A model generated the notes under the pieces. The model saw only the letters and a list, made by a program, of their open reading frames with translations. It was not told where the DNA came from and searched no databases. Made by a program: the position numbers and the translations under genes. A stretch of DNA of 64,000 bases from Allocoleopsis franciscana PCC 7113 (GTDB lineage Bacteria; Cyanobacteriota; Cyanobacteriia; Cyanobacteriales; Coleofasciculaceae), in NCBI RefSeq assembly GCF_000317515.1, contig NC_019739.1:1-64000 (forward strand). The letters are read 5' to 3'. This document shows, piece by piece, positions 14,520 to 47,809 of the stretch. Position 1 is the first letter of the stretch; each line of letters opens with the position of its first letter.

Positions 14520-15419
14520 CTATGTAGGGCAGCATGATACTTGATATGTTAGGGAACGTGCATCAAGATCAACAACGACTGTTCCTCCTCGATTTTTATC
14601 TACCTGCCGCCATACTTCATACCCTATAAGAATTGCTTTCTCCCAATCTCCCAGTGAACACTGAGCAACTTCTAAGTAGGAGGTCATATTCTTTATAGTT
14701 CTGAGTAGTTGGTAATCAAGTGTGGAAACTCCTTCCAAGAAAGAATGATCCTTGGCATAGCTGAAAATGAGTGCTGATATACCTTCCTCAATTGCCTTGG
14801 CTCGACCGCCGTCTTCAACCTCATCTACTTTAGGATTACTTTTGCGTTTACGGCTACCCAGTAGTTGACGGACAACCGGAGACCAACCCAAAACTGCCGC
14901 ATAGGACAGATGGAAAACGTCGTGAAAGCGGTAGCCATCGCTTAAGTAGGAGTTATCGGTGAGGTCATCCCCAATCTTTTTTCCGTCGATGAATGCCTTC
15001 ATCTTCACCGAACTATCTTGACTTACCTCAGCAATCTCTACCACAAACTGCCGTGGTAAACGTTCGTGTTCTGGAAAGTCCCTATCAAACATATATCCTA
15101 TGGCTTTAACACCTGTTTGTACAGAATTTCTCCATCCCCAGCGGTCAAGACACTTTTTAAGATTACCTTCTGCAATTTCTTCCAAATCAAGCTCAAACTT
15201 GCTTGCTACGTTGGCAATATACCAAAGCAAATCACCCAATTCTTCTGCAATACCGTCTTTGAAGAGTTTATGAGCATCTCCGTCACGGAGAAATTTTTTA
15301 TACTCTGTAAGGAGTGTACCTGCTTCACCCACCAAACCAAGCAGGGGTACGATTACTTTATTCTCGTCGGGAATCTGATCAGTCTTCAATGCTTGCTCTT
15401 GATACTCGCGGAAATTCAT
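14520..15419 (-). CDS. MazG-type nucleotide pyrophosphohydrolase with C-terminal extension
   Basis: This 299-aa protein has an N-terminal MazG domain (residues about 1-95): GLVGEAGTLLTEYKKF supplies the first Glu-rich helix and EELGDLLWYIANV the second, the EExxD-type metal sites that hydrolyse NTPs or dNTPs to monophosphates. Residues 150-299 form a second conserved-looking region (DGYRFHDVFHLSYAAVLGW; GGRAKAIEEGISALIF), which I recall as a MazG C-terminal domain linked to DNA hypermodification neighbourhoods. It is the last gene of the six-gene operon, 18 bp after the hypermodification gene, with a good AGGGG site. Expected job: sanitising or supplying particular nucleotides for the pathway. 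Confidence 0.82.
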   Translation of the reverse strand: MNFREYQEQALKTDQIPDENKVIVPLLGLVGEAGTLLTEYKKFLRDGDAHKLFKDGIAEELGDLLWYIANVASKFELDLEEIAEGNLKKCLDRWGWRNSVQTGVKAIGYMFDRDFPEHERLPRQFVVEIAEVSQDSSVKMKAFIDGKKIGDDLTDNSYLSDGYRFHDVFHLSYAAVLGWSPVVRQLLGSRKRKSNPKVDEVEDGGRAKAIEEGISALIFSYAKDHSFLEGVSTLDYQLLRTIKNMTSYLEVAQCSLGDWEKAILIGYEVWRQVDKNRGGTVVVDLDARSLTYQVSCCPT

Positions 15420-15437
15420 AGTCTACCCCTTGAGATT

Positions 15438-16598
15438 CTATTTCGAGTTGGAGTTTGTAGCGTTTTGGGCTGTTCTGTATTGTTTAATAGCCTCGTTAAT
15501 TCCCCACTTGGGAGGAAACCAGTAATCAATTGGTTGTCTGTTAGCTGAATATTTTTGCTTTATGCGAGTTCGACCTGATACTCCGGAAATTTCCGGGTGT
15601 TTCATCCGGGCATACTTATCGACCTCGCAAAAGAGATTTTGGCAGTCAATTAACTGCAACGGGCGTCCAAAGAGAGACTGAAAATCAAGACCTAAACGCT
15701 CAAACTCAGATTCTTGGTTTTCTGCCATCAGCTTAATGATTTCTGGCTCATTAAGACCACCCAGATCGGCAAAACATTTCCGAATACCATCAAGCGCACC
15801 TGGTCCAGGAACCACAAAACTCATTTCACTAAAGTTCGTGAGTTTGCTGTAATTAACATCCGTAATGAACTGATATGCAAGGAAGTCACCGATAGTGGGG
15901 TATTCACGCAAAAGGTCAAATCCTCGATGCATATTTGGCGCATCAGTAAGCTTCTTGGGCAGTTCATCGGCCATCATCTTCTCAATCAACTTGAGATGAG
16001 TCTGGTGCTTTCTTGTATGTCTAAGTCCTTTTCCTCCTGACGGCATGATGTATGCTGCTGAATAGATACGTTGACCTTGTTCTATCGCTTCGGTAAGAAT
16101 TTCGTCGTAGCGCTTAAAAGAATATTCAGCGTAGATAATCTTACCAAGTTTACTTTCCAAAAGCCGCCAAGTTTCGATCTTGTTGAAAATCTTAAACAGA
16201 ATGATTCTGAAAAACACTTCATCCGAAGTGGTCGGGAGATCTTCGCGGTAGATAACCTGACGGATCAGATATTGGCTTGTGCGATCTGATGCACGATAAG
16301 CATTAGTAAATTTGAAGGTAGAAAGAATTGGATCTTCAGTCCAAGGCATCGGTTCTCGGCACAACTTTTTGAAAAAGATGTTCTGCCTTTCTGCTGCGAA
16401 ACGCCAGTAGGTATCAAATACAATAGTAGGCTTGGCAGGCAGAAGGTGAGAGTATGCAGCAACATCTATGCTTTGAGAGCTTTTGGGTGTACTATAGTCG
16501 CCAAAGTTAAGACTTAGTTGTTCGTCAAGAGATGTATCTTTTTGAGTAATTTTAAATTTTCCTCTCGGTGGTTGTTTTGTTGGCATTATACGTTCCAT
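15438..16598 (-). CDS. Putative DNA base hypermodification protein (HMUDK_hel / aGPT-Pplase-like)
   Basis: The product is 386 aa. The core (about 55-330) carries a set of motifs I associate with the predicted alpha-glutamyl/putrescinyl-thymine pyrophosphorylase or 5-hmdU DNA kinase helical family: TYWRFAAERQNIFFKK, FTNAYRASDRTSQYLIR, RILLFKIFNKIETW-like, IYSAAYIMPSGG, GDFLAYQFITDVNYS and VVPGPGALDGI. The fold is thought to be DNA-glycosylase-like. Family members are predicted to alter a modified thymine or hydroxymethyluracil base in DNA. No P-loop is visible, so a kinase reaction by this chain alone is unlikely. It lies 10 bp after the TS-like gene. The family call is from memory of motifs; the reaction here is unknown. 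Confidence 0.75.
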   Translation of the reverse strand: MERIMPTKQPPRGKFKITQKDTSLDEQLSLNFGDYSTPKSSQSIDVAAYSHLLPAKPTIVFDTYWRFAAERQNIFFKKLCREPMPWTEDPILSTFKFTNAYRASDRTSQYLIRQVIYREDLPTTSDEVFFRIILFKIFNKIETWRLLESKLGKIIYAEYSFKRYDEILTEAIEQGQRIYSAAYIMPSGGKGLRHTRKHQTHLKLIEKMMADELPKKLTDAPNMHRGFDLLREYPTIGDFLAYQFITDVNYSKLTNFSEMSFVVPGPGALDGIRKCFADLGGLNEPEIIKLMAENQESEFERLGLDFQSLFGRPLQLIDCQNLFCEVDKYARMKHPEISGVSGRTRIKQKYSANRQPIDYWFPPKWGINEAIKQYRTAQNATNSNSK

Positions 16599-16608
16599 CC
16601 ATTGCTTG

Positions 16609-17394
16609 TTAGTCTGTCCTTGAGGGTATCACTTTTCGACATACTTTTATGACTGGGGCGAGAGTCTCTGAACTCTTGGTGATGTTATCCAGCTTGGCTA
16701 CACCAATAAAGCAGTTCATCCGGCTAAATTTTAGATCCATTTCGTGAGCCATAAAGTTCCCTAGTCTGCACAGTCCTAAGTAGTTCCCATAAGCTTTATT
16801 AAAGACCTGCTGAGTAGCATAAAAAGCATTCATCGTAAGGTTATTTTTATGTGGGACAAAGCTTATATGTTGTAGACAAGGAAAAGGAAGTTGAGCGCTA
16901 CCCACATGGTCTCTCCCAGGATCGAAAATTGATGCCTGAAACATCGATCTCCTAACGGCTGGACGATCCTTATACTTAGAAATAATGTATTCAAGTTGGT
17001 TACCATCATTTGGACCAGAGCCGAAGGCAATAAGTCTTTCAAAGTAAATGCCACGTTTATTCTTATTTAGTTCTACGGCTTTTATTCTGGGGAAAATCTT
17101 GAGATATCGCTCAAATAACTCCTTTCGTCCGTCTTTAGAATGTCTCCAGAGAGAATGAGGAAAAATCGTATTCGCAACAGTATCTATTGTTTGCTCACCT
17201 TCGGCAGCAAGACAATTGTCAAGCGACTGTCGAATATCCGTATCCTCATTTGGTATGCCATCATTAAAACCTGTGATGCTCACCACAAGAGGGGAAATTT
17301 CCTTACCTGGATTATCAATAATGTGCAAAAATGCTTTTGCCCAAGCATGGGAAAGGTTGTTTTCATCAATCAAAAGAGGTGAACTGTTACTCAT
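16609..17394 (-). CDS. Divergent thymidylate-synthase-fold protein
   Basis: The product is 261 aa from the ATG at 17394, which overlaps the ImmA stop by 8 bp and has a GAGGTGG site. The C-terminal half matches the thymidylate synthase core: FPCLQHISFV puts Cys173 at the nucleophile position, and NAFYATQQVFNKAYGNYLGL with LGNFMAHEMDL follows the TS pattern of LxxxxYQRSxDxxLGxPFN and alLthmiA. The phosphate-binding Arg of the YQRS motif is absent (YATQ), and the GDTHLY motif appears as GVAKLD. Dedicated TS homologues such as dUMP and dCMP hydroxymethylases feed DNA hypermodification; this one probably works on an unusual substrate. The N-terminal 100 residues are not alignable by eye. Confidence 0.75.
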   Translation of the reverse strand: MSNSSPLLIDENNLSHAWAKAFLHIIDNPGKEISPLVVSITGFNDGIPNEDTDIRQSLDNCLAAEGEQTIDTVANTIFPHSLWRHSKDGRKELFERYLKIFPRIKAVELNKNKRGIYFERLIAFGSGPNDGNQLEYIISKYKDRPAVRRSMFQASIFDPGRDHVGSAQLPFPCLQHISFVPHKNNLTMNAFYATQQVFNKAYGNYLGLCRLGNFMAHEMDLKFSRMNCFIGVAKLDNITKSSETLAPVIKVCRKVIPSRTD

Positions 17395-18268
17395 CTTCCA
17401 CCTCTTCAAGATGCCGATATTGACTTAGACCAATAAACTGATACCGCGAGACACGAACAAAGACAGCCCATCCGGTGTCACGGCAATAAACCCTCACAAT
17501 ACCGGGACGGTTAGCTTTAAAAAGTTGTCCCTTCGGGTGATTTTCTTCAAGGGTGATAGTATCATTTACAGCTTGTGCACCTGTTGGAAGCAAAAGGAGA
17601 CTTCCAACTTCGGCATCAATTGTTGGCATTAACCAGTGTGCATCGGCGATAGTCAACGGGTCAGTCGATGGACGCCCAAGCACCTTTTCACGAATAGTTT
17701 TGGGCTTTGTTTTGAGAAGCGTACTAGCCCTTGAAGAGGAGATCATCTTAAGAGCATAAGCCATGTGAGTAATTAGCGTTTCGTACCCAACGCCGAAATT
17801 ACAGGCAATTGTAAAAATCTGCTCTGGCGTTGCCGAAGCCGCATCCCATCCACGCGAAACGAATGCTTTCCGCACGCATAAAATTGGCATGAGCAAAAAT
17901 CCAGCAAAGGAGTTAGCTAAAAACTCCTCTGGCTCAAAAGCCTGAGAGCTTTCTGCTTCTCCTAGCAGTTCATCGATAGTCGAACCATGTCCAAAGACAT
18001 GATGACCAAGTTCGTGAGCACAGGTAAAGATGCGTCTGGGGAGAGGACGTAATGCGGAAAGTAAAATTACCGACTCGGCTTCTCGGAGATAGATCCCCTC
18101 CATACTGATGTCAACAAACTTGACTCTCACATTGAGCTTGTCGCACAAGCCATAAATACAGAGTGGGCTTTTGTTGTCAAAACCTGTTTTTCTCCGCACC
18201 TCGATTGCTTTCTGCTGGGCTTGTTGTGCCAAAACCTGTCTCTGATTTCTCAAAGTCTGATTCCTCAA
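17387..18268 (-). CDS. ImmA/IrrE family metallo-endopeptidase
   Basis: The product is 293 aa. CAHELGHHVFGHG at about residues 83-95 gives the HExxH zinc site, followed by EEFLANSFAGFLLMP, the usual third ligand region (E...AN.FA). ImmA/IrrE proteases cleave or inactivate a partner XRE repressor when a stress signal arrives. Here the partner gene is immediately upstream with a TTGA overlap: the start is a TTG at 18268 with a strong GGAGGAG site. The C-terminal ~130 residues form an extra domain, probably a sensor. It most likely relieves repression of the operon it sits in. Confidence 0.9.
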   Translation of the reverse strand: MRNQTLRNQRQVLAQQAQQKAIEVRRKTGFDNKSPLCIYGLCDKLNVRVKFVDISMEGIYLREAESVILLSALRPLPRRIFTCAHELGHHVFGHGSTIDELLGEAESSQAFEPEEFLANSFAGFLLMPILCVRKAFVSRGWDAASATPEQIFTIACNFGVGYETLITHMAYALKMISSSRASTLLKTKPKTIREKVLGRPSTDPLTIADAHWLMPTIDAEVGSLLLLPTGAQAVNDTITLEENHPKGQLFKANRPGIVRVYCRDTGWAVFVRVSRYQFIGLSQYRHLEEVEDE

Positions 18269-18615
18269 AGTACTTCTCCTCCTCTACGCATTGAGGCAAG
18301 TATTGTTAAAAGTCGATCAAGGTCATCTGGTTTAAGCTTTCGGAGTTCTCTCGCGGCAAGCTGAATCTTGTCGTCATGGATATCAAGCTTGTCTGCACCC
18401 TCCCCAAGCAACCATGACACACTTACGTCATAAATTTCGGCAAGCTTCGTGATCTCATCAGCAGAAACCTTTCTATTCCCAGCTTCCGCTTCCGTAATTG
18501 AAGGGCGATGAAGACCAAGCATCTTAGCTACCTGAGCTTGGGAAAGCCCCGCCATCTTGCGAGCTTCACGCAAGCGGGCTGCAATAATTGACCTCTTCTC
18601 TTCTGTGTAACTCAT
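18265..18615 (-). CDS. XRE-family helix-turn-helix repressor
   Basis: The product is 116 aa. Residues 12-68 form a classic Cro/C1-type HTH (AGLSQAQVAKMLGLHRPSITEAEAG; then VSADEITKLAEIYDVSVSWLL). The C-terminus is a short helical dimerisation or protease-target region. An AGGAGAG site lies 8 bases before the ATG, and the gene starts 2 bp after the carrier-protein stop. It probably binds the palindromes at 18920-18946, which overlap the predicted -10 box, and is switched off by the ImmA-type protease encoded next. Confidence 0.92.
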   Translation of the reverse strand: MSYTEEKRSIIAARLREARKMAGLSQAQVAKMLGLHRPSITEAEAGNRKVSADEITKLAEIYDVSVSWLLGEGADKLDIHDDKIQLAARELRKLKPDDLDRLLTILASMRRGGEVL

Positions 18616-18617
18616 AC

Positions 18618-18905
18618 CTAAGTCTCTCCTCTGTTGACAATCTCACAGACTACAGCAACAGACTCCTCAATGGTGAGCCATCGCTTGCCATCCTTTGAGA
18701 GAAATATGTTGTTATTGTTGGGAATCTCTACATCTAGTCTGTCGGCTAGCATACCAATCGCTTCAATACATAGGAGGCTATCAAACCCTTCAAGGTCAGT
18801 CATGGGACAAGTTGTTCCTGTTATTTGGGTGGCTTGGTACCCACTATCGCTTTGGATCTCCTGGAATACTTCAATCAGCTTGACTTCCACATCCTCTGGA
18901 CTCAT
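18618..18905 (-). CDS. Acyl-carrier-protein-like protein, first gene of the hypermodification operon
   Basis: This is a 95-aa acidic protein with the carrier-protein pattern: helix I (VEVKLIEVFQEIQ), then LEGFDSLLCIEAIGMLADRL, where Asp42-Ser43-Leu44 matches the DSL site that takes 4'-phosphopantetheine, and a last helix (TIEESVAVVCEIV). Length fits an ACP (75-95 aa). Carrier proteins hold acyl or aminoacyl groups as thioesters. In this operon it could present an amino acid or acyl group for attachment to a base, which is inference. Nothing in the window encodes an adenylating ligase or a phosphopantetheinyl transferase; chromosomal enzymes would have to serve. Confidence 0.7.
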   Translation of the reverse strand: MSPEDVEVKLIEVFQEIQSDSGYQATQITGTTCPMTDLEGFDSLLCIEAIGMLADRLDVEIPNNNNIFLSKDGKRWLTIEESVAVVCEIVNRGET

Positions 18906-18919
18906 GGCACAGTCTCTAT

Positions 18920-18967
18920 TCTTACTGATGGTAAGAATATCTTACCAAAATAGACAAGAGTTGCCAA
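18920..18967 (-). promoter_or_regulatory. Promoter with overlapping tandem palindromic operators for the six-gene operon
   Basis: Read on the minus strand, TTGGCA (18967-18962) and TAAGAT (18944-18939) are separated by 17 bp, a good sigma-70-type promoter. The -10 box lies inside an inverted repeat, GGTAAGA-ATA-TCTTACC (18930-18946). A second inverted repeat shares one arm: TCTTAC-TGATG-GTAAGA (18920-18936). Tandem operators over the -10 box and just upstream of the first gene (start 18905) fit autorepression by the XRE protein. Confidence 0.75.
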
Positions 18968-26160: not shown

Positions 26161-26306
26161 TGTTAGAATTGAATCCATTGATGTTGGGTTTTGCTATTGC
26201 TCTACCTAACCTACAGCGATGGCGATCACACTGACACTCACGGTGATCGCTGAGTACTAAGCAAGTAGAAGCTCTACAGTTAAATACACAGAATCTCTGA
26301 ATATTG

Positions 26307-29300
26307 ATGTTGTCTCCGAGAGTTAATCCCAACTTACCCCCCAACTTTTATGAACTGGGAGAGTACGACTTCCAAGATATGTGCTGTGACGTATTCTCAG
26401 TACAACATGAAATAGCTACTTGCGATGTATATGGAACACGAGGGCAGGGACAGGATGGGATTGACCTTTTGGCTCATTGTGATGATGGTATTCACACTGA
26501 AGTAGGTCAGTGCAAGTGTTATGAAGACTTTCCACCTCGCCAAATCCGTGAAGCCTCTGATGAGTTTTTGAAACATATCGACTACTGGCAAACCCAGAAG
26601 GTTAGGCGATTCATCTTATTTGTCGGCTGTGAGCTAACTCAAAACCAGCGGCAAAGAGAAATTTTGATTCAGAAACAACGTTTTGCAGAGTTAGGCATTC
26701 AGTATGAAGCTTGGTCAGCAAGCACGCTACGTCAAAAGTTAGCTCCTCACCCTGAAATTGTTTATCGCTACCTAAAGTCGCAGGAGTGGGTGGAAAAAAT
26801 CTGTGGTCGTGTACCACAGCAATACCCACAATTCCCAGAAAATTCTCAAGAAACACAATTGGCGTTTGGTGTTCTCAGTTCAAAGATTGGACATTTGTCC
26901 TCTGAGTTGTCGAAGGAAAGAGCTAAACAGCTAGACGAATTCCGGGAATTATATAGGCAAGGATATTTGCAGCAAGCATTTGCCTGCCTCGAAGCCTTGC
27001 GGCATGACTCAAACTGGGATGTCTTTGAGAAGCCCCTACAAGCACAGATTTTGCAATCCCTATCAAGCTATGTCCTTAGTGTCGAACATGATGCTGAGAA
27101 AGCTAAAGCTTTGGCAGAACAAGCCCGTGCCATTGCTCCAGAGACAGATGACTCTCTCCTGCAAGTTTTGATTAGCTATCACGCTCAAGGTGCAGAAGCT
27201 GCCCTGAGATTGATTAGCAACGCGTCAAGTATTGACCTTTTCAATCTCGAACTGGGCTTGTTATTAGAACTAGGACGTACAGAGGAAGTTATTACCAAGC
27301 TGCAAACCTTGCCTCAAGGTTTAGAGCCTGACGCTGAAACTAACCGCATACATGCATTGGCGCTTTTAGATAAAGGAGACATTGCTGGTGCTCAGGTAAA
27401 GATTCAACAAGCTCGTTATGAAAAACCAAATTGGGAGAAGATTAGAGCATCTGAGGCTACTATTAATTACTTTAGTGTACTCTCACCTGCTATTCCCAAA
27501 CAGTTAATTGACTTTGCTCAACCTGTTGACTGGTCACTCATCAAGCGTGATGACGAAAGTTTGCACCGCTTACGCAAAGCAGCAGAGGAGTATAAGCAAC
27601 TCGCCTCTCAAACTGAGCGAGGGGAGAAACAACAGAAATATTGGCAAATATGGCATCTGGTTTGCTTAGCGAACGATCCAGAGCGTCAGTCAGAGGCTCA
27701 GGAGTTATGTTCCGCACTACTTGCCGAAGATCCAACTAACCCACAAGCTATCATTTGGAGAACGGTTCGCAACTACCAAATTGATTTATCTACGAGTCAA
27801 CAAGCCTTAGAAGCGTTGGTGCAGGAAGAAAGCAATGACCTCGATCGCATTGTTGCTTTGCTCGGAATATACCTTTACCTGGAGACTCCCAAGCCTGCCC
27901 TAGAACTTCTACATCGTACAAGGGAAACGTTTGAGCAAACTGGAAATCGAGATGTCTGGCTTTTCTGGCATGTACAAACCCTAGCGATAGATGGAGAGGT
28001 GGAAACCGCGCTTCAAGAAAGCGAAACGTTTAGCAACCCTGCTGTTCGTCGCAGCATTCGATCGGCAATTCTGCGAGAACAGGCGCGGGTGAGCGGTAAC
28101 TGGCAGGCATTTGCTGAGTATCTAGAGACATGTTGGCAGGAAAGCCATAACGGTCAATATTTAAGCGAAGCTTGCCAACTCCGAGCTAGTTTACAAGACT
28201 GGGCTTATGTTGCGGATAGAGCCGATGATTTGGTGAATTCGGTGGGAACACCTGATGCCCTTAGTCTAGCAGCACAATGTGCTGGACAAGCGGGTCGCTT
28301 TGAGCAATGCTTTCAGCTATTGAATGACCATCAAAAGCTTTTCCCAGGCAGTACTTTGCCTCCCTATCTGCGCCGTTTGAGAGCCTATTGTCAGGCAAGG
28401 TTGGGGTTGATCTCACAGGCAGTTGCTGAGGCAGAGGAGTTAGCGCGATCGCATGAAACAGTCGAAAATCTCGTAACCTTGATGAATCTCCAGCTAAATC
28501 AGGGAGACTTACGAGGACTAGCGAGTACTGCTTCTCGTCTATTAAAGCAAGAAGATGTCCATCCAATTTCCTTGCTCCGAGCAACTAGATGTCTACTCTC
28601 AGAAGACCCCACGTTAGCACGTCAGCTATGGCAGCGGACAGTTACCGTACCCATTGAAGCGGAGATTTTAGGAGAAGTCATTACCCTGGGATATAACCTG
28701 GGACTAGATCGGGAGATGCAACCTTTTGTTCATCGGGCGCGGGTACTTGCTATCAATGGAGAAGGTCCATTTCAGGCAGTGAGAATTAGGGAACTTCTGG
28801 AGCTACACCAGGAGTGGGCAGAAAATGCAGCTTTAATCAATCAAAAATACAATAACGCAGAACTTCCTATTCACTTGATTGCCCAGACACGAAGATTTGC
28901 GCTTACTAACATTTTCCGCGTCCTTCCTAGAGCGAACACGAACAATCCCAATCCCCATTGTCAGGCAGCAGTGCTGGCGCGTTATGGTGCCCGTCCCTTC
29001 CCAGAGGGGTTTGCCGACTCAAGCACTCAGTGGCAACTGCACTTGGACATATCAGCTTTCTTGCTGGCTGCTCACTTGGGTATTTTAGACGCACTAGAGC
29101 AGCGGTTTAGACCAATTCGGATTTCGCCAACACTACCAACTGCCCTTTTGCAAGAATGTGAACACTTCCTACTGCATCAACCCTCTCGACTAAATAGTTA
29201 TCGCGAAATCTTACGACTGAACCAATCCGGGCAACTGCGAGAACTTCCTCAGCCCTTGAACGGAAATTGTGATGAATTAATCGAAAAATTAGGTGAACAA

Positions 29301-32300
29301 TTAGCCATTCTGCTAGAGCAAGCTCGTACCGAAAATGGGTTCGTGGTTGAGTTCTTGCCATTGGAACAGCTTGATGCTAAGGGTGTGATGCAACCCATTG
29401 TGTTAGACGAGACAGATCAACAAAGGTTTATCAATTGTCGTGGGCTAGTCGAGGCACTGAAAGAACAGGGAGTTTTATCTAATAGTGCATATGAAACGGC
29501 GCTGAATAATCTGGGAGATCAGAGATATGCAGATTTACCGCCAAAGTTACCGACTCGGAATGACTTGATAGTCTTGAACTCTGAACTGGCTGTTCTCTTA
29601 GCTGGCTCAGATTTGCTGGCAAGAGTGTGTCGCTATTTTCGAGTATTTGTAACGCATCAGTGTGTTGGTGAGGCACAGGTGACAATCAATGGCAGTGAAT
29701 ATTCGGCTGAATCGGTGAGATGGCTTAGAGAGCTTATCCAACGAGTCTCAACTGGACTAGAGCGAGGAACATACGAGGCGATCGCACTGTCCAATCATGA
29801 CTCTGACAGGGAACTTGAATTCCAGCCATCTTGGGATGCAAATGGATTAACAGCTTACGACCTATTCACGTATGCCTCTCAACCTAGTGATGTTATCTGG
29901 ATTGATGATCGCTGCTTCAGTAAATTCCCCTATCGAGATGGCAGAACACCAATTATCGGCGTACTGGAAATTTTAGAGGCGCTACGGGTTAGTGGCGATC
30001 TAAGGGAAGCGAACTACTACGAGAAAATTTTGCAGCTACGTGCAGGTAACATTCGGTATATTCCCATCACAAGTAAAGAAGTTATTCATCACTTGAAGCA
30101 AGCACGAGTGAGATATGGCAGAGTTCAAGAAACTGAAGAGCTATCCATCATTCGTCGCTATATGGCTTCCTGCTTGCTAGATTCGCATAGACTTCAACGT
30201 CCTCCAATGCCTGAAGGCTCACCCAGTCCTGACGGTGAAATGATGTTTGTTATTGAGTGCTTCCGTGCAACACAAGAGGCAATAAGTGATGTTTGGGCGG
30301 ATAATAGTCTTTCTGAAGAGATGGCTGTTGCCTATTCTGATTGGGTTCTAGAGAACCTATATACTGGCGCTTTTGGTGCCCGACATCTCTTACCGAGTGT
30401 TGATTCAAACAGTGATGGGCTGGATTTAATCAGCAATGACATTAGTAGTCTCTACTTCCGAGGTATTCAGTTGTGGAGAATTGAAAATAATGATACCCCT
30501 CAGGCTCTTAGCCGTCGCCAGCAGTATTTTCGCTGGCTTGAGTCGCGAATTACAGAAAATCGCTTCAAAGCCAATCCAGAAGTAATTACTTCTGTAGCAC
30601 GATTAATCAAAGATATTATTCTTTACCTGGGGCGGGAGCGAGAAGGGGATGAATCTCTGCAAGTCGTGAACCGACTAATGTTGAAGGAGTTTTATCGAGA
30701 TCTCCCAGATGTTTTACAGGATGAACTGAAAACCGAGCCTGAGTTGATGGCTTATTTCCAAATTCAAATGGTTGAGTCTATCAATCTAACACTGCCAGAT
30801 TCATCAACTCCTCTTGTATTTCCCGCCTCAGACTTCTTCTCAGCGATTGCAACAGCCGTTAATGGTGAAGAAGCAAGCCTTACAGCCTTACAGCCGCAAA
30901 TCACTTTCAAAATTCGGGCTGTTCAGAATGGTTCTTCTATTCAACTTCGTTTTATCAATGAAGCTTCCTCAGCTATCTACGCATGGCAAAATGATGTGAT
31001 GCTGCTGGCATCAAACAATCCCAATGTACGCGAGCAAGCCCTGCGATCGCATCGTTTCTGGTTTGACTGTGATAACGCAACCTTTGAAAGGGTGGTCAGT
31101 GAAATCGTATCTACCACAGATCTTCGCAGGCGCGTTGACCTTGCAAATGAATGGCGTGAGCAGTCAGCAGCAGTTTTCTATTCATCATTTGAGCAGAAGC
31201 TTCATGACGATCGCGGCTTTACGATTGATGAGTTAATTCCTCCATCAGGGGCTGGGCTACTACGACATTTTCACCTTGAACAGTATGCAACAGAAAGCCT
31301 GAGTTTCCACGAAAAACTAAGTTGGGCAGCAGAATCCCTATTGGCTGCTGAAGGACTTGAAATCTGCCTGGAACGCCTTTGTTGCCTTCCAGTTAAACTT
31401 CCTGTGCAGGTAAGAGAGACATTTAGGGAGTTGCCATCAAGTGAGAGACGAGCGGTGCTAGATAGACTTGCCTCCCGATTAACTACTCCAGTATGCCAGC
31501 TACATCTGATTGATTTAGCGCTGCTTTCTCCCGACTCAACTGATTTAGTTCAGCGTATCCTTGACGAACTTTGTGGCGATGTCGGTGAACTTCAATTCCG
31601 GTTATTTCAGGCAATCCTCAATCTCCTAAGTGGTGAGTTTAGTTATTGGCACGAGACTAGGAAGTGGTTGCCTTCAATGCGGCTAGCCATGATTTGGGCA
31701 CAGGCGAGCAAGCTATATAACCTACTGTATCACCCCACACTTCAATTAGAGGAATTTGTTCAAGGACTAGAGGAACATTCTAAGCTGAGAGCGATTAGTG
31801 CCGACCTTCTCGATCTCAACCCAGAATTTTGGAATGACGTTCTCCACCCTCGACGGCTTAACAGAATTAAGCTGGTTGTTCATGGTCTTGCCACTGTCTT
31901 ATCAGGGTGCGAACCGGAGATTCTCAAAGCACTAGAGATTACAGAAAAAATTTCTGCCTTTGCTGTTAGAACTCTTGAGGAGCAGCAGTTCTTGGATTCA
32001 CAACTTTGGCGTGATGAATCCTCTCTCGCCCAAGATAACTTGGACTCGTTACTCGGTGGAGAGCGCAGCGAATATTTAGCTTCTCTCCTGGGAGTCGAGT
32101 TAGGACAGCAGATTGCCTCTGAGCAATTGAAAGCAGCAGCAGAAAATGCGCTCGATTCTCTTATCAATGAACCTTCTACTAAAGAAAAATGGCTGCTGAT
32201 TATTACTGTAATTGGGGACTTGCCAATTTACAGGGATTTAAGAGAAAAATTCAGTAACCTATTGAACAACCTTGATATCGTTGAGCTTTACCGAGCCGAA

Positions 32301-32684
32301 CCATCTACTGCACTTTTTGCCTTGATGGTTGCCTCGGATCATGCGGCAAATAGTGGTGATGAAAACCTTAGGTCTAAGTTGGAGCAGGAATTAGTTGCGA
32401 TTGTTGGGCTAATCAATTCTCAGAAACAAGAAGAACCAGTAAATTGTGAGATTGCTGACGATGTTCTTGAAAGTGCGCTGAAGCTTGCTGTCAGAGCAAA
32501 CGATCCATATACTACAAGCCGGTTCCTAAACAGTCTACTTGAGAAGATTTTTTCTGCTTGTCCACGTTTCGTCAGTTGGCGTGCTAACGGGCTATCTAGA
32601 GGAGTTCGAGAATTACCTACTAATCAGCTACACGGATGCTGGAAAACAGTTCTGTTGCTTCGAGCTTTGTGTAACAACGAATAA
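26307..32684 (+). CDS. Giant nuclease-TPR-PIN protein (Mrr-like REase head), probable defence effector
   Basis: The product is about 2,125 aa. ATG at 26307 is preferred over the adjacent TTG. Residues about 15-165 form an Mrr-type PD-(D/E)XK domain: GQDGIDLL, then EVGQCKCY (Asp54, Gln69, Lys71 by the count from the TTG). Residues about 180-900 are helical repeats of TPR type. Around residues 1085-1260 there is a PIN-like region: LNSELAVLLAGSDLL (first acid), then VIWIDDRCFSKFPYRDGRTP. The remaining ~850 residues are helical and unrecognised. PIN plus TPR plus a nuclease head recalls predicted conflict-system proteins. No ATPase motif is seen. It stands alone, so it may act as a single-gene system. 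Confidence 0.75.
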   Translation: MLSPRVNPNLPPNFYELGEYDFQDMCCDVFSVQHEIATCDVYGTRGQGQDGIDLLAHCDDGIHTEVGQCKCYEDFPPRQIREASDEFLKHIDYWQTQKVRRFILFVGCELTQNQRQREILIQKQRFAELGIQYEAWSASTLRQKLAPHPEIVYRYLKSQEWVEKICGRVPQQYPQFPENSQETQLAFGVLSSKIGHLSSELSKERAKQLDEFRELYRQGYLQQAFACLEALRHDSNWDVFEKPLQAQILQSLSSYVLSVEHDAEKAKALAEQARAIAPETDDSLLQVLISYHAQGAEAALRLISNASSIDLFNLELGLLLELGRTEEVITKLQTLPQGLEPDAETNRIHALALLDKGDIAGAQVKIQQARYEKPNWEKIRASEATINYFSVLSPAIPKQLIDFAQPVDWSLIKRDDESLHRLRKAAEEYKQLASQTERGEKQQKYWQIWHLVCLANDPERQSEAQELCSALLAEDPTNPQAIIWRTVRNYQIDLSTSQQALEALVQEESNDLDRIVALLGIYLYLETPKPALELLHRTRETFEQTGNRDVWLFWHVQTLAIDGEVETALQESETFSNPAVRRSIRSAILREQARVSGNWQAFAEYLETCWQESHNGQYLSEACQLRASLQDWAYVADRADDLVNSVGTPDALSLAAQCAGQAGRFEQCFQLLNDHQKLFPGSTLPPYLRRLRAYCQARLGLISQAVAEAEELARSHETVENLVTLMNLQLNQGDLRGLASTASRLLKQEDVHPISLLRATRCLLSEDPTLARQLWQRTVTVPIEAEILGEVITLGYNLGLDREMQPFVHRARVLAINGEGPFQAVRIRELLELHQEWAENAALINQKYNNAELPIHLIAQTRRFALTNIFRVLPRANTNNPNPHCQAAVLARYGARPFPEGFADSSTQWQLHLDISAFLLAAHLGILDALEQRFRPIRISPTLPTALLQECEHFLLHQPSRLNSYREILRLNQSGQLRELPQPLNGNCDELIEKLGEQLAILLEQARTENGFVVEFLPLEQLDAKGVMQPIVLDETDQQRFINCRGLVEALKEQGVLSNSAYETALNNLGDQRYADLPPKLPTRNDLIVLNSELAVLLAGSDLLARVCRYFRVFVTHQCVGEAQVTINGSEYSAESVRWLRELIQRVSTGLERGTYEAIALSNHDSDRELEFQPSWDANGLTAYDLFTYASQPSDVIWIDDRCFSKFPYRDGRTPIIGVLEILEALRVSGDLREANYYEKILQLRAGNIRYIPITSKEVIHHLKQARVRYGRVQETEELSIIRRYMASCLLDSHRLQRPPMPEGSPSPDGEMMFVIECFRATQEAISDVWADNSLSEEMAVAYSDWVLENLYTGAFGARHLLPSVDSNSDGLDLISNDISSLYFRGIQLWRIENNDTPQALSRRQQYFRWLESRITENRFKANPEVITSVARLIKDIILYLGREREGDESLQVVNRLMLKEFYRDLPDVLQDELKTEPELMAYFQIQMVESINLTLPDSSTPLVFPASDFFSAIATAVNGEEASLTALQPQITFKIRAVQNGSSIQLRFINEASSAIYAWQNDVMLLASNNPNVREQALRSHRFWFDCDNATFERVVSEIVSTTDLRRRVDLANEWREQSAAVFYSSFEQKLHDDRGFTIDELIPPSGAGLLRHFHLEQYATESLSFHEKLSWAAESLLAAEGLEICLERLCCLPVKLPVQVRETFRELPSSERRAVLDRLASRLTTPVCQLHLIDLALLSPDSTDLVQRILDELCGDVGELQFRLFQAILNLLSGEFSYWHETRKWLPSMRLAMIWAQASKLYNLLYHPTLQLEEFVQGLEEHSKLRAISADLLDLNPEFWNDVLHPRRLNRIKLVVHGLATVLSGCEPEILKALEITEKISAFAVRTLEEQQFLDSQLWRDESSLAQDNLDSLLGGERSEYLASLLGVELGQQIASEQLKAAAENALDSLINEPSTKEKWLLIITVIGDLPIYRDLREKFSNLLNNLDIVELYRAEPSTALFALMVASDHAANSGDENLRSKLEQELVAIVGLINSQKQEEPVNCEIADDVLESALKLAVRANDPYTTSRFLNSLLEKIFSACPRFVSWRANGLSRGVRELPTNQLHGCWKTVLLLRALCNNE

Positions 32685-45788: not shown

Positions 45789-46988
45789 CTAGTTTAATTG
45801 CTCAAGAAGTGACTCAGCAATTGCTTTGGAGAGTGGTGGAGGCACAGCATTACCAATTGCTTGGACGACTGAGTCATACTCATGCCCCAGTTGAAAGTTA
45901 TCAGTAAAGCCCATTAACCGAGCTAACTCACGAGGCGTAAGCGCCCTCTCATACTTGTAATGGTAGGCAAAATCTGAATGACCTTGTACAGTGGGGCTGT
46001 GGCTTTCAGGGAGTAGCCGACGATACGCACTGTAATGACTTCGCCTCAGTTGTCCACTGGCTGGCTCGAATGGAATTCTATAAGTTAAGGGAGTTGGTAA
46101 ATCTCGCCAGTTTCCACCAGGCACGATCGCTTTTAGCCTCTCTCTAGTTTCTGGTCGAACCCGTGGAACTACATGACCATCTGTTTCCTGGGTATACTGT
46201 CTTGCCCAACGCTGGTAGGCACTTTGTGGTGGAACCCCGTAAGAACGATTGCTTCCTTTCGTTTTACCTTCTAGAATGGGCAAGTCGGCGATCGCCTGTT
46301 CGACATTGACTAATCGACAGTCATCTGGGTCAAGCAGACAAGAGCGCCAAGGTTCCTGGAGTTTTGAGCAGTAGCCTATCTTTCCATCTTGTTCAACTCT
46401 TCGCAGCCAAAACTGTTGATGGGGAATATCCACTCCCTTTGGAATAATGGGAAGACGCCCAAAATCCCATCGAATCCCCACCACAATCAATCTGGCTCGT
46501 CGAGAAGGATTTCCAAAGTTTGCAGCTTCTAGTACTGCATGGGCAACCCGATAATTATTTCGCCCTTTCAACCTGCCTATAAATCGCTTAAAAACTCTAG
46601 ATTTTTCTAGCTGAGGCACATTTTCGTAAATAAAAGCTAACGGACTTAACTCCCGTACAATCTCAGCAAATTTAATAGCTAGACGATTGTTCGGATCTGA
46701 ATGTGTATCCTGACCATTCCGAATTTGTGTAAAACCCCGACAAGGGCTTCCTCCTACAACTAGATCGACTCCACCATTCAATCTAATTTTTTCAATCAAA
46801 TCTCTAAGATTTGCGGACTTAGAAAGGTCAATATTTAGTACATAAGTATCGGGTAAATTACGTCGATAAAGAGCCAAAGCAGGCTCGTGATTATCTATCG
46901 CCCATAAAGGTTCAATCAAGCCTGTTTCCTTCAATCCCCAAGATAAACCGCCCATTCCGCAGAATAAGTCTAAGGCTCTCAAACCCAT
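45789..46988 (-). CDS. drmMII: DISARM DNA cytosine-5 methyltransferase DrmMII
   Basis: The product is 399 aa with all main C5-methyltransferase motifs: I (LDLFCGMGGLSWGL), IV (GGSPCRGFT, catalytic Cys; PCR rather than PCQ), VI (YENVPQL), VIII (SRRARLIVVG) and IX-X (QAIGNAVPPPLSKAIAESL). In class 2 DISARM this enzyme marks host DNA. The ATG at 46988 overlaps the drmC stop as TGATG; a TTG one codon earlier is possible. The target sequence cannot be read from the protein by eye. Confidence 0.9.
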   Translation of the reverse strand: MGLRALDLFCGMGGLSWGLKETGLIEPLWAIDNHEPALALYRRNLPDTYVLNIDLSKSANLRDLIEKIRLNGGVDLVVGGSPCRGFTQIRNGQDTHSDPNNRLAIKFAEIVRELSPLAFIYENVPQLEKSRVFKRFIGRLKGRNNYRVAHAVLEAANFGNPSRRARLIVVGIRWDFGRLPIIPKGVDIPHQQFWLRRVEQDGKIGYCSKLQEPWRSCLLDPDDCRLVNVEQAIADLPILEGKTKGSNRSYGVPPQSAYQRWARQYTQETDGHVVPRVRPETRERLKAIVPGGNWRDLPTPLTYRIPFEPASGQLRRSHYSAYRRLLPESHSPTVQGHSDFAYHYKYERALTPRELARLMGFTDNFQLGHEYDSVVQAIGNAVPPPLSKAIAESLLEQLN

Positions 46989-47809
46989 CAAAGTGTCTCC
47001 AAATGAATTGGCTCAGCGCGATCGATGAGTTTTTGAAGCATGGGGACAAGCTGCTGAGCTACAAAAATTCCTTCGACTAACAAGCCAAATTCTATATCAC
47101 CCTCTAGACTATTTTTTGTCCAATTTGCTGAACCTATATAAGCAGATTGATTATCTTTAACAATCATCTTTGAATGAAAAGTTTGACGGCTTTTAATACC
47201 ATCATAATCTAGATTATATGCTTTGAGTAAGTGAAGGTTTTGCTCGGAAACTAAACTCCGAACTCTTCGTAAAGTTGGCAAAACAAACTCTCGGCTACCA
47301 GGAATAGCCCTTCGCAGTACAAGTCGAACGCTTACGTTGCCCTGTTGCAATTGCCAAGCTAATAGCTCTATTAGGGTATTAACCTGTTGATTGTCAAGAC
47401 TAAAAAAGGGATTAATTATCCACAAAGTTTGACTTGCTGAACGAATTAAGTCTCGAAATACATCGATAGTCTGGCGAGATTGAGCAATATTTAACCATAC
47501 AGGATTAGTTAGAACCAATTGAATTTTTGGGGTAAGTTCTTCCGAATCGGCATAAGCCCATATAGCACCTTGTACATGGCTCAAGAAGGTTTGAAACCGG
47601 GTTGAGTCTGTAATGCGCCCTTTGCGATCGCACAGTCCTGCCTGTGAGAGCCACTCTAGTAAAGCCTTTGTCCGAGTTGAATCATACGGTTCACTGATAT
47701 TCCCCGTAGCTGCCCTACCTATCAGGGGATCTAAATCTAACGAAGAGTGGTACAGCATTTTTGCCACTCTTATCACTAAAGCTGTGTAATCTGTCGCCAA
47801 GGTTTTCAA
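46988..47809 (-). CDS. drmC: DISARM phospholipase D-like protein DrmC
   Basis: The product is 273 aa with one HKD motif: HSKMIVKDNQSAYIGSANWT (His, Lys, Asp in HxKxxxxD spacing, then GSANWT). A degenerate second half precedes it (ASQTLWIINPFFSLDN). PLD-fold nucleases of this size are the DrmC component; it is dispensable for protection in studied DISARM systems. The frame opens with a TTG at 47809 without a good ribosome site; the in-frame ATG at 47758 is a second choice. Confidence 0.8.
   Translation of the reverse strand: MKTLATDYTALVIRVAKMLYHSSLDLDPLIGRAATGNISEPYDSTRTKALLEWLSQAGLCDRKGRITDSTRFQTFLSHVQGAIWAYADSEELTPKIQLVLTNPVWLNIAQSRQTIDVFRDLIRSASQTLWIINPFFSLDNQQVNTLIELLAWQLQQGNVSVRLVLRRAIPGSREFVLPTLRRVRSLVSEQNLHLLKAYNLDYDGIKSRQTFHSKMIVKDNQSAYIGSANWTKNSLEGDIEFGLLVEGIFVAQQLVPMLQKLIDRAEPIHLETL

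Follow-up and report, generated by a model that had tools for sequence, protein, structure and literature searches.

CapH and CapP are controllers of immune operons that are triggered by single-stranded DNA (ssDNA) (PMC13373217), and in the protease PprI residue R85 binds ssDNA (PMC10904395). Phages hypermodify thymidine with enzymes that include 5-hydroxymethyldeoxyuridine (5-hmdU) kinases, aGPT-PPlase/PUGT proteins, thymidylate synthase (TS) homologues and MazG, and pyrimidine chemistry of this class is known from nucleoside antibiotics as well. The main text of DefensePredictor 2026 reports experimental validation in E. coli of anti-phage activity for TS, 5hmdU-kinase and NMAD domains (PMC13092281). 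Here we describe a six-gene operon that brings members of these families together, located in the first 64,000 nucleotides of contig NC_019739.1 of the cyanobacterium Allocoleopsis franciscana PCC 7113 (hereafter the window). It encodes a small carrier protein, an XRE/Cro repressor, an ImmA/IrrE (M78) zinc protease, a TS-fold enzyme, an HMUDK_hel protein (HMUDK) and a MazG pyrophosphohydrolase.

The six-gene operon is a real conserved unit. We read it, tentatively and a little short of an even chance, as a switch-controlled operon that would make a C5-modified uracil or thymine compound with a dedicated carrier, most likely for defence against phages or other invaders. What the analysis shows directly is gene content, order and conservation, the operator, the predicted folds, the invariant catalytic residues, and the carrier's homology together with an adjacent transferase. 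A first-pass annotation of the same DNA had proposed an inducible system that makes an unusual nucleotide, modifies host or phage DNA, or depletes a nucleotide on stress, and its interpretation overall is partly supported.

A six-gene operon conserved across phyla

The genes span 14520-18905 of the window as a tightly coupled minus-strand series (Table 1), with gaps in order of +2, -4, -8, +10 and +18 bp, the third becoming -23 bp if the TS-like gene begins at TTG. The first-pass annotation had described six same-strand genes with gaps of -8 to +18 bp behind one promoter with palindromic operators. The open reading frames confirm the former, and the single transcription unit is upheld. The gene identities it assigned also hold, through matches to HTH_3, Peptidase_M78, HMUDK_hel, MazG_C, MazG and TIGR03283 and, for the carrier, through a family profile; the 386-aa and 261-aa proteins do match the hypermodification and TS families it had named for them.

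Scanning 84,980 species genomes with a profile yielded 80 loci, and loci from 386 cyanobacterial genomes and from viral contigs were added. Of 99 non-redundant HMUDK loci, the full core of carrier, XRE, ImmA, TS and HMUDK genes is present in 50, in that order in 49 of the 50, with median junctions of -4, -4, -23 and +6 bp; the 50 were drawn from the proteins most similar to the HMUDK of the window. Core loci come from at least ten bacterial phyla, with hosts, as given by the titles of the records, among the Cyanobacteriota (including Gastranaerophilales), Pseudomonadota, Deltaproteobacteria, Planctomycetota, Acidobacteriota, Chloroflexi, Bacteroidota, Balneolota (Aliifodinibius), Armatimonadota and Verrucomicrobiota; a Streptomyces form among the plasmid records has the same genes, partly inverted. 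Because these loci were picked through the window HMUDK, linkage was checked independently, starting from the TS-like profile. This profile matched in 7 of the 386 cyanobacterial genomes, every time at an HMUDK locus, and HMUDK itself occurs in just 17 of the 386. Seven plasmid records with a TS-like gene were opened, and all seven carry a small protein, a helix-turn-helix (HTH) protein, ImmA and TS in this order, ImmA being accompanied in some by a C1 peptidase. A chance neighbourhood was rejected given the recurrence of the core and the seven-of-seven linkage of TS to HMUDK: the genes that the first-pass annotation grouped do recur together, with the core in 50 loci.

Variants of the unit were also seen. 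In the close relative G002 (L020:9858-12778) two transposase genes split the TS-like gene, and the remaining five genes are intact. Two IMG/VR viral contigs (L114, L115) bear the operon or its peptidase variant, in which a papain-family peptidase lies between ImmA and TS (L147, L150, L162, L108, L113, L115). This variant often comes with MazG, on plasmids with uracil-DNA glycosylase, and extends to a haloarchaeon; the GTAAGA operator described below is absent from the C1-peptidase forms scanned. A cyanobacterial HMUDK form (L022-L028) consists of HMUDK-DUF1643-MazG without carrier, XRE, ImmA or TS, and DUF1643 also adjoins the AcpS gene beside the full operon (e.g. L019:6746-7222). Near another core operon (L050:11448-13601) lies a 717-aa calcineurin-like phosphoesterase, the C-terminal half of which is weakly TS-like.

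A predicted protease-gated switch at a single operator

The XRE protein matches HTH_3 (1.4e-15) with capH as its top PADLOC match (2e-17), and its HTH residues R37, P38, E42 and R48 are invariant in 50 of 50. Its partner matches Peptidase_M78 (2e-13) with capP as its top PADLOC match (1e-13), and the family profile finds IrrE (2e-6) and CapP (5e-6) as its best non-designed matches in the PDB. H85, E86 and H89 of the HExxH motif are invariant in the protease, as is R78, which lies seven residues ahead of HExxH at the position of R85 in PprI. Judged by sequence, the pair has a CapH/CapP-type make-up, and the repressor is predicted to bind a conserved candidate operator; the protease-gated XRE repressor of the first-pass annotation is upheld.

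The core of this operator, GTAAGA-N3-TCTTAC, lies 5' of the carrier gene. It is exact there in 32 of the 50 core loci and has at most one mismatch in 42; 3 further plasmid loci also have it exactly. In loci whose called carrier reading frame is too long, another four exact sites were scored as outside, and these probably represent the same position as the others. Beyond those, no exact core occurs elsewhere in the 775 kb, and the 7.97-Mb host genome holds exactly one site against about 0.5 expected by chance. Second palindromes like TATTCTTACCATCAGTAAGAATA are present in several other loci, and an extended operator, GGTAAGATATTCTTACC, was seen in 14 viral contigs (L163-L176).

In the window the -10 box falls within the operator palindrome. 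The putative promoter, TTGGCA-17-TAAGAT at 18967-18939, belongs to a class of matches that is not commoner than chance in this region (6 found against 8.8 expected from shuffles). Shuffling the 150 bp 500 times produced palindromes with arms of at least 7 in 36 cases; the operator palindrome is credible despite this rate because it is conserved between phyla, which we regard as decisive. Since the switch resembles CapH/CapP and IrrE-type controllers and the operator is conserved, the operon would be inducible, a conclusion that is well supported by homology.

Table 1. Genes of the operon and elements of its promoter region (window coordinates)
Feature	Position	Strand	Length or remark
Carrier protein (ACP-like)	18618..18905	-	95 aa
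XRE/Cro repressor, CapH-like	18265..18615	-	116 aa
ImmA/IrrE (M78) zinc protease, CapP-like	17387..18268	-	293 aa
TS-fold enzyme	16609..17394	-	261 aa from ATG; 266 aa from TTG upstream at 17409
HMUDK_hel protein	15438..16598	-	386 aa
MazG pyrophosphohydrolase with MazG_C domain	14520..15419	-	299 aa
-35-like hexamer TTGGCA	18962..18967	-	consensus match only
-10-like hexamer TAAGAT, TG in front, within operator	18939..18944	-	consensus match and overlap with palindrome
Operator palindrome TGGTAAGATATTCTTACCA	18929..18947	.	perfect; core GTAAGA-N3-TCTTAC at 18931-18945
Second palindrome TATTCTTACCATCAGTAAGAATA	18917..18939	.	perfect; overlaps the first, half-site in common

The carrier protein and the TS-fold enzyme

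Taken alone, the window carrier scores below the Pfam cut-off (PP-binding 0.026). Run against the PDB, its family profile matches acyl carrier proteins at E 5e-6 with the DSL motif aligned, and the attachment residue Ser43, within a GFDSLL motif, is invariant (55 of 55), with Asp42 in 47 of 55. By homology and this conserved serine the small protein is a phosphopantetheine-binding carrier, its modification being predicted. A phosphopantetheinyl transferase (PPTase) gene, AcpS (PF01648 1e-15), adjoins the operon in 22 of the 50 core loci, accompanying the form that ends in MazG in 19 of 29 loci and the form that ends in a radical-SAM gene in none; RefSeq labels at equivalent positions read 'acyl carrier protein' and 'holo-ACP synthase'. 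No AcpS lies beside the window operon, and its host genome has one PPTase, which is chromosomal. A Haloarcula plasmid carries a related gene set with its own PPTase.

For the TS-like protein the only profile match is TIGR03283 (2.6e-11). Its AlphaFold model (predicted local distance difference test score, pLDDT, 94) has the TS fold, with the nearest structures being 9iqc, a flavin-dependent deoxycytidine monophosphate (dCMP) monooxygenase (Z 17.3), MilA (Z 17.0) and ThyA (Z ~15); MilA also leads the sequence matches of the protein in the PDB. The catalytic Cys173 (E. coli C146) and the base-binding Asn204 (E. coli N177) are invariant in 50 members. In E. coli ThyA, Asn177 selects uracil over cytosine. 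Where ThyA has R166, S167 and D169, the window protein aligns Ala, Thr and Gln. With Asn204 kept and the phosphate-gripping R166/S167 lost, a uracil base is therefore likely and the ordinary grip on deoxyuridine monophosphate (dUMP) is not; on this model the protein likely acts on a uracil base. A housekeeping TS was rejected, the host using ThyX and its genome being without a match to PF00303. Among 50,697 phage records the TS-like gene had no match, and capture of phage genes by the host is unsupported for TS on that count.

The prominence of MilA, an enzyme of mildiomycin synthesis, among both the fold and the sequence matches would suit a nucleoside natural product, whether antibiotic or signal and secreted or intracellular, made by the TS-fold enzyme, the carrier and a radical-SAM protein. 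A carrier with a PPTase is characteristic of natural-product assembly, and an interchangeable last enzyme, be it MazG, a radical-SAM protein or the second TS, suits product diversity. We nevertheless consider this reading quite unlikely, given that the genes seen to recur beside the operon include no adenylation domain, transporter or resistance gene and that one compact unit, shared by many phyla, is under a CapH/CapP-type switch.

HMUDK and the variable end of the operon

HMUDK matches its family strongly (PF18723 5e-114), and the SP10 5-hmdU kinase matches it at E 2e-14. The AlphaFold model (pLDDT 90) has the fold of the amino-acid transferases that resemble helix-hairpin-helix (HhH) glycosylases. 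Its nearest solved structure is PUGT, a phage 5-phosphomethyl-deoxyuridine (dU) glycinyltransferase (8z2n; Z 11.2, root-mean-square deviation 3.8, 225 residues), tied with the queuosine-salvage protein DUF2419 (Z 10.4), and HhH glycosylases score lower; a sequence-only PDB search with HMUDK gave no match. PUGT belongs to DNA modification and DUF2419 to nucleotide salvage. The fold therefore does not choose between a polymer and a nucleotide target. The 386-aa window protein has no kinase-domain match and no Walker A motif by eye; the P-loop kinase domain is present only in homologues of 560-597 aa. By its fold the protein resembles PUGT, and transfer of an amino acid to 5-phosphomethyl-dU is a putative activity. 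With the PUGT-like fold, the TS fold and the HMUDK_hel family, the link to base-hypermodification chemistry drawn in the first-pass annotation is sustained.

An HhH-like GPGA motif is invariant in HMUDK and suggests DNA contact, and the nearest relatives by fold (PUGT, SP10 5-hmdU kinase) protect phage DNA. Both would fit hypermodification of self DNA, in which a carrier-derived group on thymine protects the DNA of the host, plasmid or element, for example from restriction during conjugation; the operon indeed lies on conjugative plasmids and, in the window, on a contig with genes like those for a type IV secretion system (T4SS) and ParA/ParB. This explanation is unlikely all the same, since there is no DNA polymerase or dTTP-depleting gene as phages have, stress-gated control would sooner be expected for a product that is toxic or costly than for a permanent mark, and the TS-like gene is in none of the phage records.

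The MazG protein matches MazG_C (PF18722 3e-84), MazG (PF03819 4.6e-5) and the phage MazG-like phrog_229 (2.5e-38). At this position, 3' of HMUDK, the 50 core loci have MazG in 29, a radical-SAM gene in 13 and a second, more canonical TS in 8; one second-TS locus also has MazG, and L056 lacks all three. No core locus combines MazG with radical SAM. Further partners are a dCTP-deaminase-like gene (8 of 50 core loci) and a dTMP-kinase-like domain, which is a separate gene in 4 core loci and fused to HMUDK in 12; together with the second TS, these partners point towards dU/T chemistry. MazG and the dCTP-deaminase-like gene could also speak for nucleotide depletion, with MazG and the TS-like and HMUDK proteins destroying dUTP or dTTP to starve phage and the carrier being regulatory. 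We rate this as the least probable of the explanations considered here: radical SAM replaces MazG in 13 loci and the Bacteroidota locus L085 has kept MazG_C and lost the MazG domain, so that pyrophosphohydrolysis is not a constant part of the system, and depletion requires no carrier, PPTase or transferase.

Genomic and defence context

The host contig (C2, 146 kb) is probably a plasmid, its T4SS-like and ParA/ParB-like genes having been judged by reading the open reading frames; no near-identical plasmid was found in PLSDB. Elsewhere on the contig, by eye only, a 2126-aa reading frame (26304-32684) begins like a restriction endonuclease and a gene at 45789-46991 resembles a C5 cytosine methylase.

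PADLOC-DB 2.0.0 gave no match for the carrier, HMUDK or MazG and only a weak restriction-enzyme match for TS (0.0036); the operon is not among the named systems of that database. In a defence-island test, proteins from the flanks (128, against 128 controls) matched 110 PADLOC models, including Gabija, Hachiman HamA, HEC-01A, PDC-S52 and mad6, versus 11 in controls, an enrichment that is suggestive only because many of the 110 models are redundant GajA/GajB; counted by protein it is weak (~6 versus 3-5 in controls). On plasmids of S. fredii and R. rosettiformans the operon lies beside ABC-three-component or SIR2/AAA genes.

Other HMUDK proteins (L092-L096, L098-L100, L104, L105) lie in clusters of TIR-SLOG, ThsB-TIR, Nmad2, MazG and HMUDK genes, and several have type I restriction genes at their flanks. 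From their gene content, these clusters look like a second HMUDK-based, defence-like system. Such relatives, together with TIR or Nmad2 genes near three core loci (L050, L052, L072), raise the idea that the modified nucleotide acts as second messenger for separate effectors, as in Thoeris and CBASS. This seems improbable, there being no effector-like gene beside most core loci, the window included.

In the literature on this gene set we found only DefensePredictor, with an earlier mention possible in the Aravind-group 2013/2015 papers or the hypermodification papers of Lee et al.; no description was found of the carrier-bearing form. The DefensePredictor paper describes TS, dNMP kinase, 5hmdU kinase and NMAD domains in one or more E. 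coli systems, the same families as in the operon (PMC13092281). A search by DNA similarity for an E. coli homologue of that system gave no match, the method being too weak to conclude from. By analogy, a defensive role of the operon is plausible.

Discussion

We infer ssDNA induction, each chemical step, the cargo of the carrier and the defensive role as follows. In the resting cell XRE would occupy the single operator over the -10 box. Once DNA is damaged or the cell infected, ImmA/IrrE would sense ssDNA in the manner of CapP and PprI and cleave XRE, turning the operon on. MazG may then provide or clear nucleoside monophosphates, the TS-fold enzyme would work at C5 of the uracil base via its cysteine, and HMUDK, as a glycosylase-fold transferase, would put a nucleophile in place of a leaving group at the C5 methylene. 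Either this nucleophile or the base derivative under construction would be borne by the phosphopantetheinylated carrier, and the product would poison, mark or signal against the invader. A bolder version, which we hold to be doubtful, is that the nucleotide is built covalently on the carrier, the pantetheine thiol (or a carried amine) capturing a uracil C5 methylene that the TS-fold enzyme makes or HMUDK exchanges and the last enzyme setting the product. If true, such carrier-bound assembly of a nucleotide would add a new kind of chemistry to carrier proteins, and the operon would encode the first immune pathway based on a carrier protein.

Several points weigh against the defensive, uracil-directed scheme. 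The substrate of the TS-like protein may be other than dUMP, the R166/S167 phosphate-contact counterparts being lost. No carrier-loading (adenylation) enzyme was seen. The uniformity of the 50 core loci is partly ascertainment in a sample chosen by HMUDK, and the per-protein enrichment of defence genes in the flanks is weak. The DefensePredictor main text names no carrier or ImmA and leaves unstated whether its domains are shared within one system (PMC13092281).

If the scheme is right, many bacterial phyla, and a haloarchaeon in a related form, have an inducible carrier-based pathway of pyrimidine remodelling, and a new class of immune product comes under CapH/CapP-type stress control. With its conserved single operator the system offers an easy handle, with one promoter to derepress and one operon to assay.

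Comparison with known systems places the operon as follows. MilA, a hydroxymethylase of cytidine monophosphate (CMP), AfhB, a dCMP hydroxylase, and ThyA have the fold and the nucleophilic Cys in common with the TS-like protein, at 10-14% identity in structural alignments and with the R166/S167 equivalents lost in the latter; MilA aligns an Asp where the TS-like protein has the uracil-type Asn. The TIR/SLOG-Nmad2-MazG-HMUDK clusters, predicted nucleotide-centric conflict systems, have HMUDK and MazG_C in common with the operon, whereas TIR effectors and Nmad2 replace its carrier, XRE, ImmA and TS. Like CapH/CapP and IrrE/PprI-DdrO, the operon holds an XRE repressor and an M78 protease in one transcription unit; unlike CapH/CapP, its pair sits inside the operon after the carrier gene and would control TS and HMUDK enzymes, with activation by ssDNA predicted. 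Phage thymidine hypermodification is alike in the HMUDK_hel family and PUGT fold, in its MazG and TS-fold partners and in the fusion of HMUDK to a dTMP-kinase-like P-loop domain, found in 12 core loci as in SP10. The window system differs in being bacterial, in its carrier, PPTase and protease switch, and in a TS-like protein not found in phage records. What is new relative to the phage chemistry is a carrier with its own transferase, a single conserved operator and an exchangeable last enzyme.

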